A DNA stretch of 32,399 nt from Clostridia bacterium (GTDB lineage: Bacteria > Bacillota > Clostridia > Clostridiales > Clostridiaceae). The stretch is from positions 1 to 32,399 of the forward strand of contig JAAYTB010000172.1 in NCBI GenBank assembly GCA_012523855.1, read 5' to 3'. The translations under genes were made by a program, and so were the position numbers. Below, piece after piece: positions 9,557 through 15,241 of this stretch; position 1 is the stretch's first letter, and each line of letters opens with the position of its first letter. The notes below the pieces were generated by a model that searched no databases, had not been told where the DNA came from, and worked only from the letters and a program-made list of their open reading frames with translations.

Positions 9557-9859
9557 ATGAATGAAACTGCTGGATTTATTATGTCAATAGTGATAATGTT
9601 GGCAATGTTTTATCTTTTAGTCTTTATTCCGGAAAATAGGAGAAAGAAAAAATATAATGCAATGCTAAACTCTTTAAAACTAAATGATGAGATTATGACT
9701 AAAGGTGGCATTATTGGTAAAATTACTAGTATAAAAGAGGATTGCATATTGCTTCAGACAGGCCCTGATAGAGCTAGAATCAAGATGTCAAAGAACGGTA
9801 TTTCTCATGTTATGAGTGAAAGTAAGCTAGAAGCGAAAAAAGAAAGTAAAAGCAAATAA
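9557..9859 (+). CDS. yajC: Sec translocase accessory subunit YajC
   Basis: YajC (100 aa) is the small membrane partner of SecDF and SecYEG. It has a single N-terminal membrane helix (about residues 6-25, GFIMSIVIMLAMFYLLVFIP), a basic segment ENRRKKK, and the YajC cytoplasmic signature LKLNDEIMTKGGIIGKI. A good AAGGAGG site precedes the ATG. It follows tgt by 43 bases; its usual partners secD and secF lie 2.2 kb downstream, with the membrane protein and ranthipeptide genes between. Confidence 0.96.
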   Translation: MNETAGFIMSIVIMLAMFYLLVFIPENRRKKKYNAMLNSLKLNDEIMTKGGIIGKITSIKEDCILLQTGPDRARIKMSKNGISHVMSESKLEAKKESKSK

Positions 9860-9928: not shown

Positions 9929-10297
9929 ATGGAGCAAAAGGCGTTTTTAACCAAAGTTTCAATGGGGGTTTTTAGATCCATCTTAATAACTATTGCATTA
10001 CTGATAATATTTAGTATTATTATGGCTTTTAAAGATGTGGGTACTCAATTCATGTCAGTATATTATGTGGTAGCTACCTGTCTTAGTGTTGTGTATGGGG
10101 CCATGTATTCGGCAAAGAAAAATAATCGAAATGGATGGCTTGTAGGTATATTAGTAGCTGTCTTGTATATGAGCTCAATTTACATATTATCTGCAGTGCT
10201 TTTTAAAAACACTTCTTTTGGTACTACGGAATTATTAAGATTACTCATAGCGATTTTAGTGGGGGCATTATCAGGTATGCTTGGTATAAATATATAG
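9929..10297 (+). CDS. TIGR04086-type four-helix membrane protein
   Basis: A 122-aa integral membrane protein with about four hydrophobic segments (near residues 15-33, 42-60, 68-88 and 100-120) and a short basic loop (AKKNNRNG). Size, topology and position directly before a SCIFF ranthipeptide gene match the TIGR04086 family of clostridial membrane proteins, of unknown function. The ribosome binding site AGGAGGT (9914-9920) is part of a possible long-range stem: AAACACCT (9880-9887) is complementary to AGGTGTTT (9917-9924), which might limit translation. A role in exporting or sensing the ranthipeptide is only suggested by location. Confidence 0.75.
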   Translation: MEQKAFLTKVSMGVFRSILITIALLIIFSIIMAFKDVGTQFMSVYYVVATCLSVVYGAMYSAKKNNRNGWLVGILVAVLYMSSIYILSAVLFKNTSFGTTELLRLLIAILVGALSGMLGINI

Positions 10298-10303
10298 AAA
10301 TAC

Positions 10304-10332
10304 TTTATTTAAACAACTTAATGTGTTATAAT
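10304..10332 (+). promoter_or_regulatory. Probable promoter of scfA
   Basis: A perfect TATAAT (10327-10332) with an extended TG (TGTTATAAT) lies 36 bases before the scfA GTG. The -35 position holds TTTATT (10304-10309), a weak match, as is common for extended -10 promoters. Confidence 0.5.
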
Positions 10333-10368
10333 GCAATTAAAGTGTTTTTTGGAATGGAGGGCTAGATA

Positions 10369-10506
10369 GTGAAACATATAAGAACAATAAATAAGGCGAA
10401 TTTAAAAAACAGTTTAGCAAAGCCTGGTTGTAAAGAATGTGCTAATTCTTGCCAGTCAGCTTGCAAGACTTCTTGCACCGTTGCAAACTTAGCCTGTGAA
10501 AACTAA
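10369..10506 (+). CDS. scfA: SCIFF ranthipeptide precursor (six-cysteine peptide)
   Basis: This 45-residue peptide starts with GTG, and GGAGG (10356-10360) lies 8 bases upstream. It reads MKHIRTINKANLKNSLAKPG, then the cysteine core with Cys21, 24, 28, 32, 36 and 43 (CKTSCT near 32-37), and ends LACEN. This is the SCIFF family ('six Cys in forty-five'), a precursor of ribosomally made ranthipeptides. In the characterised relative CteA of Clostridium thermocellum, the maturase links Cys32 to Thr37 by a thioether; the same two residues are Cys and Thr here. The N-terminal half acts as leader and is strongly conserved in the family. The maturase gene follows after two stem-loops. No protease or exporter gene is adjacent. 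Confidence 0.95.
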   Translation: MKHIRTINKANLKNSLAKPGCKECANSCQSACKTSCTVANLACEN

Positions 10507-10530
10507 AATCATAGGGTAGCGGCAACATTA

Positions 10531-10550
10531 GAAGGGGTTAACACCCCTTC
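10531..10550 (+). terminator. Stem-loop 1 between scfA and scfB
   Basis: GAAGGGGT (10531-10538) pairs with ACCCCTTC (10543-10550), an 8-bp GC-rich stem with a TAAC loop, 25 bases after the scfA stop. No T-run follows directly, so it may shield the 3' end of the scfA mRNA more than it terminates. Confidence 0.5.
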
Positions 10551-10565
10551 ATTTACTGCTTATTT

Positions 10566-10597
10566 AATGTGCAACCTTCAGTTGCACATTTTGTTTG
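10566..10597 (+). terminator. Stem-loop 2 between scfA and scfB, possible partial terminator
   Basis: AATGTGCAAC (10566-10575) pairs perfectly with GTTGCACATT (10581-10590) around a CTTCA loop, then TTGTTTG. The short, interrupted T-tract suggests a leaky terminator that would leave the peptide mRNA in excess of the maturase mRNA. No clear promoter is visible between this hairpin and scfB. Confidence 0.55.
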
Positions 10598-10659
10598 CTC
10601 ATAATAAGTTTATGTAAGGAATATTATTAACATAGATTATTTGTTAGGAGGATATGATC

Positions 10660-12021
10660 GTGGCATTAATACATAAGTTTATTCAAGGAGGAAACTACTA
10701 TGTAGTGGACGTAAACTCAGGATGTGTTCACATAGTAGACGAGCTTGTTTTTGATATTTTAGATGAAGAAAATATTCCAAACAAAGAAGAAACCATAAGA
10801 AAACTTAGTTATAAATATAAAGTAGAAGAGCTTGAGGAAGTTTTTTCTGAGCTACAGCAGCTTATAGATGAGGAAATGCTGTATTCAGGTGATAAGTACG
10901 AGGATATAGCACTAAATGACAAATCAAAGTCTTTTATTAAAGCTATGTGTCTTAATATAGCCCATGACTGTAACTTAAAATGTAAGTACTGTTTTGCAGA
11001 AGAAGGGGAATACAAAGGTCATAGAATGCTAATGAGCCCAGAGGTTGGCAAAAAGGCAGTTGACTTTGTAATAAAAAATTCTGGCCCTAGAAAGAATATA
11101 GAAATAGACCTTTTTGGTGGAGAACCATTGTTAGCTTTTGATACCATTAAAGAAATCGTTGAATACGCAAAGGAACAGGAAAAAGTATACAATAAAAACA
11201 TAAGATTTACTATGACCACTAATGCTACTTTGCTGACAGATGAAATAATGGAATATATAGATAAGAACATGGGAAATATAGTATTGTCTATAGATGGAAG
11301 AAAGGAAGTTAACGACAAAGTTAGGGTTAGATATGACGGCAGTGGCAGTTATGACAGCATACTTCCCAAAATAAAAGAGATGGTAGACCGTCGTGACAAG
11401 AACAAGCAATATTATGCCAGAGGAACCTTTACTAGAAATAATACAGACTTCTACAAGGACGTAATGGCTTTAGCCAATGAAGGCTTTAAGGAAATTTCCA
11501 TTGAACCAGTAGTTTTAGCTGATAATGATCCTCTTTCGCTGAGGGAAGAAGATTTGGAAACTATTTTTGATTCTTATGATAAATTAGTGGAAGACATGAA
11601 AGGAAGAATAGGTACAGATAAGGAATTTAAATTCTACCATTTTAGTATAGACTTAAATGGAGGACCTTGTGTTTACAAACGAATTAGTGGTTGTGGAGCT
11701 GGACATGAGTATGTGGCTGTGACACCTGAAGGTGATATCTATCCTTGCCATCAATTTGTAGGAAACAATGAATTTAAATTGGGAAATCTTTTTGAAGAAG
11801 CTTATAATGAAGAATTACCACAGCTATTTAAGGCTGCTCACATATATAATAAGCCTATTTGCAAAGAGTGTTGGGCAAGGTTTTACTGCAGTGGAGGTTG
11901 CCAAGCAAATAACTATAACTTCAATAAGGATATCCATATTCCTTATGAGCTAGGTTGCAGGATAACTAAAAAACGTTTGGAATGTGCCATTGCTCTTAAA
12001 TGTGCATATGAGGAAGAATAA
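10660..12021 (+). CDS. scfB: SCIFF maturase, radical SAM/SPASM enzyme
   Basis: This 453-aa radical SAM enzyme installs the thioether crosslink(s) in the ScfA peptide. GTG 10660 is chosen over ATG 10654 because AGGAGG (10646-10651) is 8 bases from the GTG but only 2 from the ATG; the resulting start MALIHKF fits the family. The N-terminal part (residues about 1-90, NYYVVDVNSGCVHIVDELV) is the peptide-recognition (RRE-like) region. The radical SAM cluster motif CNLKCKYC-type reads C104-xxx-C108-xx-C111. The C-terminal SPASM domain supplies many cysteines for auxiliary Fe-S clusters: about C337, C345, C363 (IYPCHQFV), C401, C404, C410, C414 and C433. All key residues appear present. Confidence 0.95.
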   Translation: MALIHKFIQGGNYYVVDVNSGCVHIVDELVFDILDEENIPNKEETIRKLSYKYKVEELEEVFSELQQLIDEEMLYSGDKYEDIALNDKSKSFIKAMCLNIAHDCNLKCKYCFAEEGEYKGHRMLMSPEVGKKAVDFVIKNSGPRKNIEIDLFGGEPLLAFDTIKEIVEYAKEQEKVYNKNIRFTMTTNATLLTDEIMEYIDKNMGNIVLSIDGRKEVNDKVRVRYDGSGSYDSILPKIKEMVDRRDKNKQYYARGTFTRNNTDFYKDVMALANEGFKEISIEPVVLADNDPLSLREEDLETIFDSYDKLVEDMKGRIGTDKEFKFYHFSIDLNGGPCVYKRISGCGAGHEYVAVTPEGDIYPCHQFVGNNEFKLGNLFEEAYNEELPQLFKAAHIYNKPICKECWARFYCSGGCQANNYNFNKDIHIPYELGCRITKKRLECAIALKCAYEEE

Positions 12022-12036
12022 TATAAATAGCAGTTA

Positions 12037-12065
12037 TTGACTAAAAATTTATTGAGTAATATAAT
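12037..12065 (+). promoter_or_regulatory. Promoter of secDF
   Basis: TTGACT (12037-12042), 17-base spacer, perfect TATAAT (12060-12065), 32 bases before the secD ATG. secDF is therefore likely to be transcribed independently of the ranthipeptide genes. Confidence 0.75.
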
Positions 12066-12097: not shown

Positions 12098-13354
12098 ATG
12101 AGGACAAAGAAGAGAACGAAAGCATCAAGTATTGTAATCTTTATCATTACTATTTTATTAATTGGCTCATTTGCAGTCTTAGGTTTGTTCGGAACTCCAG
12201 ATATAGGAGGATATAGAGTACAATCCTTTGGTGAAGTCTTAAAAAGAGGCTTGGATTTGCAAGGTGGAGTAAGTATTTTATTAGAAGCAACTTCAGAATC
12301 CAAAGACGATAATGCTGTTGACAGAACTATCGTTGTACTTGAAGAGAGAATCAACAACTTAGGGGTTGCAGAAACCGTTATCGCTAAAGAAGGAACTAAT
12401 AGAATCAGAGTAGAAATTCCAGGTCAGTATGATTCAAATGAAATGGTAGAGACCTTAAGTAAATCTGGAAAGCTTACCTTTGAAGGACCAGACGGAACAG
12501 AAGTTTTAACTGGATCCGACGTTAAGGATGCGGCGGTTATGATGGATAACTTTAGCCAACCAGTGGTAAGTCTACAATTAAACGATTCAGGTAAACAGAA
12601 ATTTGCAGATGCTACAGAAAAATATCTTGGACAAAGTATATCCATTAAGATGGACGATGAGTTAGTTTCTGCACCAGTGGTTCAAGCTCATATAACCAAT
12701 GGAGAAGCATCCATAACTGGTCAAGGCTCATATGAGGAAGCTGAAAGGTTAGCCAGTATTATTAAATCTGGTGCATTACCAGTTGTTTTAAAGAATGTAG
12801 AAACTAATACAGTAGGTCCAACTATTGGTGACGCTGCTATACCTCAAAGTTTAAAGGCAGGAGCTATAGGAATTATCTTAGTATTCTTATTTATGCTTGT
12901 TTTTTACAGAGTACCAGGCTTATTAGCAGATTTAGCTTTGACTGTATTTATTTTATTTGTACTGTTAGCTTTTGTTATATTTGATGTAGTATTAACTTTA
13001 CCAGGAATAGCAGGTATATTATTAACAATAGGTATGGCCGTAGATGCCAATGTTTTAATATTTGAAAGAATTAAAGAAGAGTTAAAGAGTGGCAAATCCA
13101 TCAAACCTGCCATAGACGCAGGCTTTAATAGGGCTATGAGCTCTATTGTGGACTCTAACATAACTACAATAATTGCTGCTATCGCTTTATTTAGTATAGG
13201 TACTGGTGGAGTTAAAGGATTTGCTTTAACCCTTACTATAGGTGTAATTATAAGTATGTTTACTGCAATAACAGTGACAAAAAGCCTAATAAAAATGGCA
13301 TATAATGCAGGAATATTAAGTAAAGTAACGTACTTCGGAGTAAAGAGGGGGTAA
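12098..13354 (+). CDS. secD: Protein translocase subunit SecD
   Basis: SecD (418 aa) is the large part of the SecDF membrane complex that uses the proton gradient to pull secreted proteins out of the Sec channel. It has an N-terminal membrane helix (about 11-31), the signature GLDLQGGVSILLEA, a P1 head-domain region (VVLEERINNLGVAETVI, then IRVEIPG) and five C-terminal helices (about 245-405) with GIAGILLTIGMAVDANVLIFERIKEE, split here around the conserved DANVLIFERI. The stop overlaps the annotated upstream ATG of secF. At 418 aa it is a compact SecD of the separate SecD + SecF type, rather than the fused SecDF of Bacillus. Confidence 0.97.
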   Translation: MRTKKRTKASSIVIFIITILLIGSFAVLGLFGTPDIGGYRVQSFGEVLKRGLDLQGGVSILLEATSESKDDNAVDRTIVVLEERINNLGVAETVIAKEGTNRIRVEIPGQYDSNEMVETLSKSGKLTFEGPDGTEVLTGSDVKDAAVMMDNFSQPVVSLQLNDSGKQKFADATEKYLGQSISIKMDDELVSAPVVQAHITNGEASITGQGSYEEAERLASIIKSGALPVVLKNVETNTVGPTIGDAAIPQSLKAGAIGIILVFLFMLVFYRVPGLLADLALTVFILFVLLAFVIFDVVLTLPGIAGILLTIGMAVDANVLIFERIKEELKSGKSIKPAIDAGFNRAMSSIVDSNITTIIAAIALFSIGTGGVKGFALTLTIGVIISMFTAITVTKSLIKMAYNAGILSKVTYFGVKRG

Positions 13355-13359
13355 TGCAC

Positions 13360-14244
13360 ATGCTGAAGATTGTTGAAAGAACAAAGCTATGGTTCGGAAT
13401 TTCTCTTGCTCTGTTAGCCATAGGTGCAATATTTTTAATATTAAACAAAGGACTGAATAAAGGTGTAGACTTTAGTGGTGGAACAGTAGTTAGAATAGAA
13501 CTAGGAGAAGCAAGTAAAACTGCAAATAAGGCGGATATAGATGAAATAATAAACAAATATTCAACAGGAACTCCGTCAAGAACAGTAAATGATACTCAAA
13601 TTGAAATACAGTCAAATGTATTAGACAATAAAAAGGCAAATGATTTATTTAGAGAAATAAAACAAAAATATAGCTTAAAGGATACTGCTTTAGTAGATGT
13701 AAAGCATATAGATGCATCTATTGGAAGAGAGACAACTCGTAATGCTGTCATTGCTCTTTTAGTAGCTGGATTATTTATGGTAATCTACATAAGGTTAAGA
13801 TTTAAAGATGTTAAATTTGGATTAGCTGCTATCATTGCTCTTCTACATGATGTGCTTATAACAATGAGCTTGTATGCTGTTCTTCGTATATCTATTAATG
13901 CTTCTTTTATTGCAGCAATATTAACAATAGTTGGTTATTCCATCAACGATACTATCGTTATATTTGATAGAATAAGAGAAAATTCACGAAAACTTAGGGG
14001 AAAAACAGTTGCTGAGATAGCTGATATAAGTGTTAATCAATCATTGAAACGATCTATTAAAACCTCAGTAACTACCTTGTTAACAATAACAGCAGTGTAT
14101 ATTTTTGTACCTTCAGTTCGGGACTTTTCCCTGCCTATAATCGCAGGAATAATAGCAGGAACTTATTCTTCAATATTCATAGCAAGTCCTTTATGGGTAA
14201 TATTCAATAATATAGGTAAGAAAAAAAAGGTGGCTGCTGTATAA
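13360..14244 (+). CDS. secF: Protein translocase subunit SecF
   Basis: SecF (294 aa) completes the SecDF complex. ATG 13360 (MLKIVERTKLWFG) is preferred to ATG 13354, which overlaps the secD stop and is only 1-2 bases from the GAGGGGG ribosome binding site. Six membrane helices are expected: one at about 14-32, five between about 125 and 285. Family motifs are KGVDFSGGTVVRIE and VGYSINDTIVIFDRIREN. It is translationally coupled to secD and is followed at once by a strong terminator. Confidence 0.97.
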   Translation: MLKIVERTKLWFGISLALLAIGAIFLILNKGLNKGVDFSGGTVVRIELGEASKTANKADIDEIINKYSTGTPSRTVNDTQIEIQSNVLDNKKANDLFREIKQKYSLKDTALVDVKHIDASIGRETTRNAVIALLVAGLFMVIYIRLRFKDVKFGLAAIIALLHDVLITMSLYAVLRISINASFIAAILTIVGYSINDTIVIFDRIRENSRKLRGKTVAEIADISVNQSLKRSIKTSVTTLLTITAVYIFVPSVRDFSLPIIAGIIAGTYSSIFIASPLWVIFNNIGKKKKVAAV

Positions 14245-14308: not shown

Positions 14309-14337
14309 TTGTCAAAATGTAATTTATCCTATATAAT
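14309..14337 (+). promoter_or_regulatory. Promoter of the RecJ-like gene
   Basis: TTGTCA (14309-14314), 17-base spacer, perfect TATAAT (14332-14337). Transcription would begin near 14344, which rules out translation from the in-frame TTG at 14309 and fixes the downstream ATG at 14372. Confidence 0.75.
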
Positions 14338-14371
14338 AAAAGTGTTTTCTATTGTTATTGGAGGGTTAGCT

Positions 14372-15241
14372 ATGTCTAGGTTTTTGGAAGCTTTTAATTA
14401 TCCTAACTTTTTATCTACATATAATCCCTTTTTTTTAAAGGATATGAGTAAAGCGTTGGAAAGGACAGTTAAGGCTATAAATGAAAGGGAAAAAATCGTA
14501 ATCTACGGAGCCTGCACTGCAGATGCTATCTGTGGAGTTTCTTTGATTTTCTTACTTTTCAAATATTTAAATGCCGATGTGGAGTATTATATCCAGGATA
14601 GTATAGAGGATACATTAGTTACTGAGACTATTAAAAATCATATAAACTTTTTAGGTGCTAAGCTTGTGATAACTGTAGGCTGTGATGTACAGTCACATTC
14701 CCAATTGGAGCTTTGCAAGGAAATGGGTATAGATGTGGTAGTTTTAAACAACAGTAGTGATTACCAGCAAACAAAAACTATAACCATTAATCCAAAACAA
14801 AGAGAGTGCCTGTATAAGTTTAAAGAACTATCCAATAGTGGTTTAACTTATAAGCTTGCCCAAGCCCTTTCTATGTATTACGAAATGAAGTATGCAGCAA
14901 AATACAGGGATTTGGTCTTAATAGGTACCGTAGCTTCGGAGAAACCAATAACAGACGAAAACCAAATTTTTGTAATAGATGGTCTAAAGCAGATACACAA
15001 AACTAGAAATTATGGTATCAAGGCACTGCTTAAAGTGCATAATATAAATGGTATATCAGTAGAAAGTGTACATAAGCTTGCAAGGAGCATAACACCAACT
15101 ACAAACGTTATCGGTAAAATGGATAATGCGAAAATAGCAGTTGAACTATTAACAACAACCGATGGTTATAGAGCTGAGCAAATAGCAAAATATTTAATCA
15201 AGGAAGTTTGTAAGTTTAACAATGAATTAATGGCTTATTAG
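14372..15241 (+). CDS. RecJ-like DHH domain protein, catalytic residues lost
   Basis: The protein (289 aa) starts at ATG 14372 after GGAGGG. It follows the N-terminal half of RecJ, the 5'-3' single-strand DNA exonuclease: YNPFFLKDMSKALERT, then IVIYG, later IGTVASEKPITDENQIFV and MDNAKIAVELLTT. The metal-binding motifs are changed. Motif I, normally GDYDADG, reads GACTADA (residues 46-52); the Asp-Cys-Gly motif reads VGCDV (102-106); the DHH triad reads NNS near 126-128. The protein ends where RecJ would continue into its DHHA1 and OB domains. It lies between secF and apt, a place where clostridia often carry recJ or a DHH-family gene. It is intact and has its own promoter, so a binding or regulatory role without catalysis is plausible; that is inference. 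Confidence 0.75.
   Translation: MSRFLEAFNYPNFLSTYNPFFLKDMSKALERTVKAINEREKIVIYGACTADAICGVSLIFLLFKYLNADVEYYIQDSIEDTLVTETIKNHINFLGAKLVITVGCDVQSHSQLELCKEMGIDVVVLNNSSDYQQTKTITINPKQRECLYKFKELSNSGLTYKLAQALSMYYEMKYAAKYRDLVLIGTVASEKPITDENQIFVIDGLKQIHKTRNYGIKALLKVHNINGISVESVHKLARSITPTTNVIGKMDNAKIAVELLTTTDGYRAEQIAKYLIKEVCKFNNELMAY

Follow-up and report, generated by a model that had tools for sequence, protein, structure and literature searches.

A SCIFF ranthipeptide cassette within a clostridial Sec gene string and its variants across the Clostridia

SCIFF peptides were present in nearly nine of ten of the Clostridia species sampled here; their wide spread has been described before (PMC8326336). A stretch of 32,399 nucleotides from a Clostridia bacterium (contig JAAYTB010000172.1; the whole stretch is called the window below) carries a SCIFF precursor gene in the midst of Sec genes, which raises the question of whether these neighbours are partners of the peptide or whether the peptide has simply inherited its place among them.

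The region of interest reads, entirely on the + strand, ruvB-queA-tgt-yajC-DUF3792-scfA-scfB-secD-secF-recJ-like-apt-relA. scfA (10369..10506) opens with GTG about 7 nt behind a GGAGGG ribosome-binding site, and its product reaches 80.5 bits with TIGR03973 (cut-off 50) and 79.8 bits with the Pfam SCIFF family PF13165, which confirms the precursor of 45 residues and six cysteines (positions 21, 24, 28, 32, 36 and 43) that a first-pass annotation had proposed. Cys32 and Thr37, the pair described there as kept, are both present, as is Thr34, while Cys21 is preceded by PG, not GG. The window's own genome holds this single SCIFF. The maturase named in the same annotation is ScfB, a radical SAM/SPASM protein encoded at 10660..12021 (+), with 657 bits on TIGR03974 (cut-off 425) and an alignment to CteB (5wgg) covering 448 of its 453 residues at 573 bits; the CX3CX2C radical SAM motif and the SPASM cysteines are all conserved in comparison with 142 relatives. 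Its frame first offers an ATG at 10654, but this codon is separated from AGGAGG by only 2 nt, and CteB starts at the residue matching the better-spaced GTG 10660 (MALIHKF in the window, MAMIHKF in CteB); the GTG is therefore the better start. scfB is the gene next to scfA, but the "directly before" of that annotation does not hold to the letter, since 153 nt with a terminator-like hairpin intervene.

Profiles also bore out the placement of the pair between the yajC-DUF3792 side and secDF: tgt, yajC (9557..9859, +; TIGR00739, 64 bits), the DUF3792/TIGR04086 membrane protein gene (9929..10297, +; 92 bits) and secD with secF (12098..14244, +; TIGR01129, 387 bits, and TIGR00966, 284 bits) were all recognised. 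The RecJ-like DHH protein that follows (14309-15241, 310 aa) reaches 189 bits with TIGR00644 (cut-off 397); most relatives also have it placed after secF and before apt, and the C-terminal part of RecJ is apparently missing. Judged by ScfB, the two closest Clostridium genomes are N3C (92%) and UBA3947 (89%), and both have the same gene order. Within the known SCIFF system, the window is an unexceptional example.

Upstream of scfA lies an extended -10 promoter region, TGTTATAAT (10321..10335, approximate limits, + strand), which is conserved in relatives. Of 247 loci, 171 have a top-scoring promoter ahead of scfA that lies beyond the 95th percentile of shuffled controls, 137 an exact TATAAT and 186 an extended TG. 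The intergenic stretch behind scfA (10504-10660) has a fold z of -4.35 and contains two hairpins, a terminator-like one (10566..10590, +), which is a candidate attenuator, and a second one with the stem GAAGGGG/CCCCTTC (10530..10549, +). In 80 of 111 relatives, compared with 0.85 in shuffles, scfA and scfB are separated by a hairpin followed by a T tail, and in most Clostridiaceae its stem is GCAGTAAC/GTTACTGC; an Rfam search near scfA found no RNA family. Between scfB and secD, ATTGAC-17-TATAAT is conserved in Clostridiaceae, and the promoter-like copy of the window, TTGACT-17-TATAAT (12037..12065, +), has 11 of 12 matches. These elements are best read as marking scfA-scfB as a putative separate transcription unit within an old housekeeping string. 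scfA would be transcribed from its own extended -10 promoter, the terminator behind it would pass part of the transcription on to scfB, and transcription of secD would restart at its own promoter. With partial read-through there should therefore be more peptide than enzyme, so that, in the simplest reading of these predicted promoters and terminator, the hairpin would be an attenuator holding the peptide above the enzyme.

The residue to which Cys32 is linked is disputed for CteA: reviews give Cys32-Thr37 from work in vitro and Cys32-Thr34 from work in E. coli (PMC8326336; PMC8172795). We compared the residues of 242 readable loci, some species being represented in both collections. C21, C24, C28, K33, T34, S35 and C43 are invariant, and C32 is kept in 239 loci, with Ser in the other three, and C36 in 238; residue 37, by comparison, is Thr in 205 and is replaced in 37 (Gly in 33, Ser in 3 and Ala in 1). 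The anchor for reading residues 32-43 required Lys-Thr at 33-34, and as only one of 259 loci, the decayed L141, failed it, the invariance of Thr34 is no artefact of the anchor beyond that locus. The scfA of L141 (~1492-1599) has an in-frame stop and still lies in a tgt-yajC-DUF3792-secD string, in a genome (G230) with no ScfB over the cut-off. ScfB is expected to bind the leader and to join Cys32 to the gamma carbon of a threonine by means of its radical SAM and SPASM clusters; for this threonine, the comparison favours Thr34 over Thr37 as the probable common acceptor. Residue conservation alone is no proof of an acceptor role, and Ser32 in three loci is a reason for caution. A search by sequence found no solved SCIFF peptide chain.

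Some loci depart from the usual precursor in other ways. In L220, L223 and L228, Cys32 and Thr37 are both replaced by Ser, an extra Cys lies near the C terminus (CEQC) and scfB still adjoins; in L018, L021, L071 and L073, from Caloramator/Fervidicella and relatives, Ala stands for Cys36 and leaves five cysteines. The scfA of L245 (~6804) encodes two complete SCIFF units, each with leader and core, head to tail in one open frame that is followed by scfB.

When 143 ScfB sequences were placed in a tree, the 34 rows without Thr37 all fell into one clade with a support of 100. The change of Thr37 is one event on this tree and thus counts as a single natural experiment. About 20 family codes are represented in the clade, and at least nine of them (f15, f26, f28, f30, f36, f45, f58, f70 and f75) also hold Thr37 members elsewhere in the tree, and with rare exceptions there is one SCIFF locus per genome; the simplest inference is that the non-Thr37 cassette may have spread by replacement via horizontal transfer. 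The radical SAM and SPASM cysteines are intact in its ScfB, except that one of the 34 lacks one of them.

How closely the peptide is tied to its maturase was assessed in 373 genomes of the class, drawn evenly and at least 95% complete, of which 323 have SCIFF, 318 ScfB above the cut-off and 259 DUF3792. ScfB tracks SCIFF almost perfectly, being found in 317 of the 323 SCIFF-positive and in 1 of the 50 SCIFF-negative genomes, and it was the only gene that we found co-inherited with the peptide. Near the scfB of the single exception (G185), a divergent SCIFF was sought and not found. Every ScfA has been expected to have its ScfB (PMC5300114), an expectation that family f33 contradicts: SCIFF is over the cut-off in seven of its 36 genomes and ScfB in none. 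All seven loci (L169, L170, L171, L172, L039, L167 and L168) have the full core, a ribosome-binding site and housekeeping genes around them, and downstream hairpins are mostly present. One of them, in G212, belongs to a 258-kb contig from a genome of 1.2 Mb; those of G418 and G419 have neighbours in common, recG and gatB among them (names taken from the sequences instead of a profile search). No SPASM-domain match was found in G212 or G427, two of the seven genomes. Between f33 pairs, the core differs by 0-4 residues as against 7-16 synonymous codons, a pattern of purifying selection, which here preserves the core even though the known enzyme is missing; an unrecognised enzyme, or gene losses in the draft assemblies, would be a possible alternative. 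Maturase-free SCIFF genes of this kind provide material for asking what the peptide does without a thioether.

These genes bear most directly on the idea that SCIFF is an intracellular Cys-rich peptide whose core would work with or without the thioether, for instance in metal or redox handling. The idea fits the conserved cores of the seven f33 genomes as well as the persistence of most cysteines and of Thr34 where Thr37 or Cys32 changes, but ScfB is kept almost everywhere else and the f33 genomes are drafts that might hide a remote, unrecognised maturase; we therefore consider it possible, though on the unlikely side.

A second idea, that processed SCIFF is exported and sensed as a pheromone controlling sporulation and agr, draws on C. 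beijerinckii, in which disruption of both genes lowered sporulation genes and raised agr (PMC8102284). Such a quorum-sensing effect fits a signal, as does the GG pair before the first Cys in most families, in place of which the window has PG. Export through a C39 peptidase transporter finds little room: the window's own genome has none, and just 14 of the 60 SCIFF-positive genomes examined contain a strong C39 peptidase, so that there is no universal exporter of this type. Conservation points the same way. In 31 loci holding all genes, the mean pairwise identity is 85% for the 23-residue SCIFF core, 57% for the leader, 56% for ScfB, 63% for Tgt, 45% for SecD, 43% for YajC and 31% for DUF3792. 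A core conserved above housekeeping proteins and nearly invariant over the class is unlike receptor-specific pheromones and, together with the lack of a universal C39 exporter, argues against a fast-evolving pheromone, a role that we regard as improbable. Because the core is invariant, no receptor or exporter is co-inherited and the peptide is present almost universally, a conserved role for SCIFF, housekeeping or regulatory, is most likely, rather than one as a pheromone or bacteriocin of particular strains; the effects on sporulation and agr in C. beijerinckii may lie downstream of this role.

The first-pass annotation had named the membrane protein and the Sec genes as candidate partners on the ground of their constant nearness. 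For the membrane protein the proposal fails. DUF3792 is present in 220 of the 323 SCIFF-positive and in 39 of the 50 SCIFF-negative genomes (odds ratio 0.60; Fisher p=0.19, in a test that ignores the relatedness of the genomes and serves only to show that there is no visible association), and Bacillus subtilis, taken as a control, has DUF3792 and no SCIFF. The stretches around DUF3792 of 20 SCIFF-less genomes show this gene in varying arrangements, and one genome without scfAB (G215, locus L310) has an intact queA-tgt-yajC-DUF3792-secD-secF-recJ-apt-relA string. Conversely, several genomes have DUF3792 tens to hundreds of kb away from scfA. On phyletic profile and gene order we thus reject DUF3792/TIGR04086 as a dedicated SCIFF partner and assign it to the housekeeping string.

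Nearness to Sec proved common and not constant. Gene order, read in about 200 loci with profiles built for this analysis, identifies scfA-scfB as the travelling unit, which is split in some lineages (for example f52, genomes G168 and G184; f5; f19), where scfB lies about 60 kb off or elsewhere. Placement beside Sec is a conserved trait of Clostridiaceae and of many further families: 163 of 180 Thr37-type loci lie near a tgt, yajC, secD or secF gene. None of these four genes was found in the surveyed stretches of the 34 non-Thr37 rows, whose flanks reached 5 kb or more on each side in about two thirds of cases and 1.5 kb in the others. The cassette sits inside an older ruvB-queA-tgt-yajC-DUF3792-secDF-recJ-apt-relA string, and its nearness to Sec is then most likely an inherited position rather than a function, although neutral inheritance alone need not predict that the nearness is kept over most of the class. 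A literature search, limited for subscription journals, found no paper on a gene link between SCIFF and Sec. Functional coupling, in which SCIFF or its product would be exported by, or act on, YajC, SecDF or DUF3792 and the genes would be linked for that reason, keeps some plausibility from the Thr37-type linkage and from scfA often remaining in the yajC/secDF string where scfB has moved off, but is very doubtful in view of the separate scfA and secD promoters, the intact string without SCIFF in L310, the absence of linkage from an entire ScfB clade and a DUF3792 that is not co-inherited with SCIFF and is present in B. subtilis.

Apparent SCIFF matches on mobile elements were rejected. Eleven "phage" matches are unannotated faecal contigs; of three examined, two carry scfA-scfB-secD and one scfA-scfB, and they are therefore bacterial DNA. 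Two unannotated faecal GenBank scaffolds labelled "Bacteriophage sp.", MT835472.1 and MT835702.1 (L315 and L316), hold scfA-scfB-secD, one of them also recJ-apt-relA, and represent bacterial chromosome. The single "plasmid" match is a 2.6-Mb replicon of Acetoanaerobium noterae.

Taken together, the window very probably contains a standard SCIFF cassette with its own promoter, read-through to scfB, a Cys32-Thr link for which Thr34 is the favoured acceptor, an inherited position beside Sec and a conserved role. The variants across the class matter more than the window itself. We suggest, with less than even confidence, that SCIFF is not uniform and comprises a Sec-linked Thr37 type, a Sec-unlinked Gly/Ser37 cassette in some 20 families and an f33 SCIFF selected without ScfB; if so, Thr37 could not act as acceptor throughout, Thr34 would be the likeliest candidate for that part and the function of the core would not always need the thioether. 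The survey thus drops one proposed partner, DUF3792, and offers natural variants that separate Thr34 from Thr37.

Among known systems, the ScfB-related orphan maturases of NF040492 (not_ScfB) give the closest profile by score. With 766 bits the window maturase stays under the cut-off of 855 and is therefore a true ScfB, rather than a member of that group, and it adjoins scfA; by contrast, a second ScfB-like maturase of C. tetanomorphum (L075, 6001-7344) is over the cut-off with 869 bits, and no SCIFF was found in its 7.5-kb locus. The freyrasin ranthipeptide system PapA/PapB has a radical SAM/SPASM maturase in common with the window; its thioethers are non-alpha, while that of the window is predicted, and it differs in that the PapB model gives the window's maturase 303 bits, below the cut-off of 340, and the precursor lacks the Cys-X3-Asp pattern. 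From SCIFF/ScfB as known in CteA/CteB of C. thermocellum and Tte1186a/Tte1186, with six cysteines in 45 residues and an adjacent radical SAM/SPASM maturase, nothing essential differs: the window has PG for GG before Cys21, as do other Clostridiaceae, GTG start codons and a longer intergenic stretch with two hairpins.
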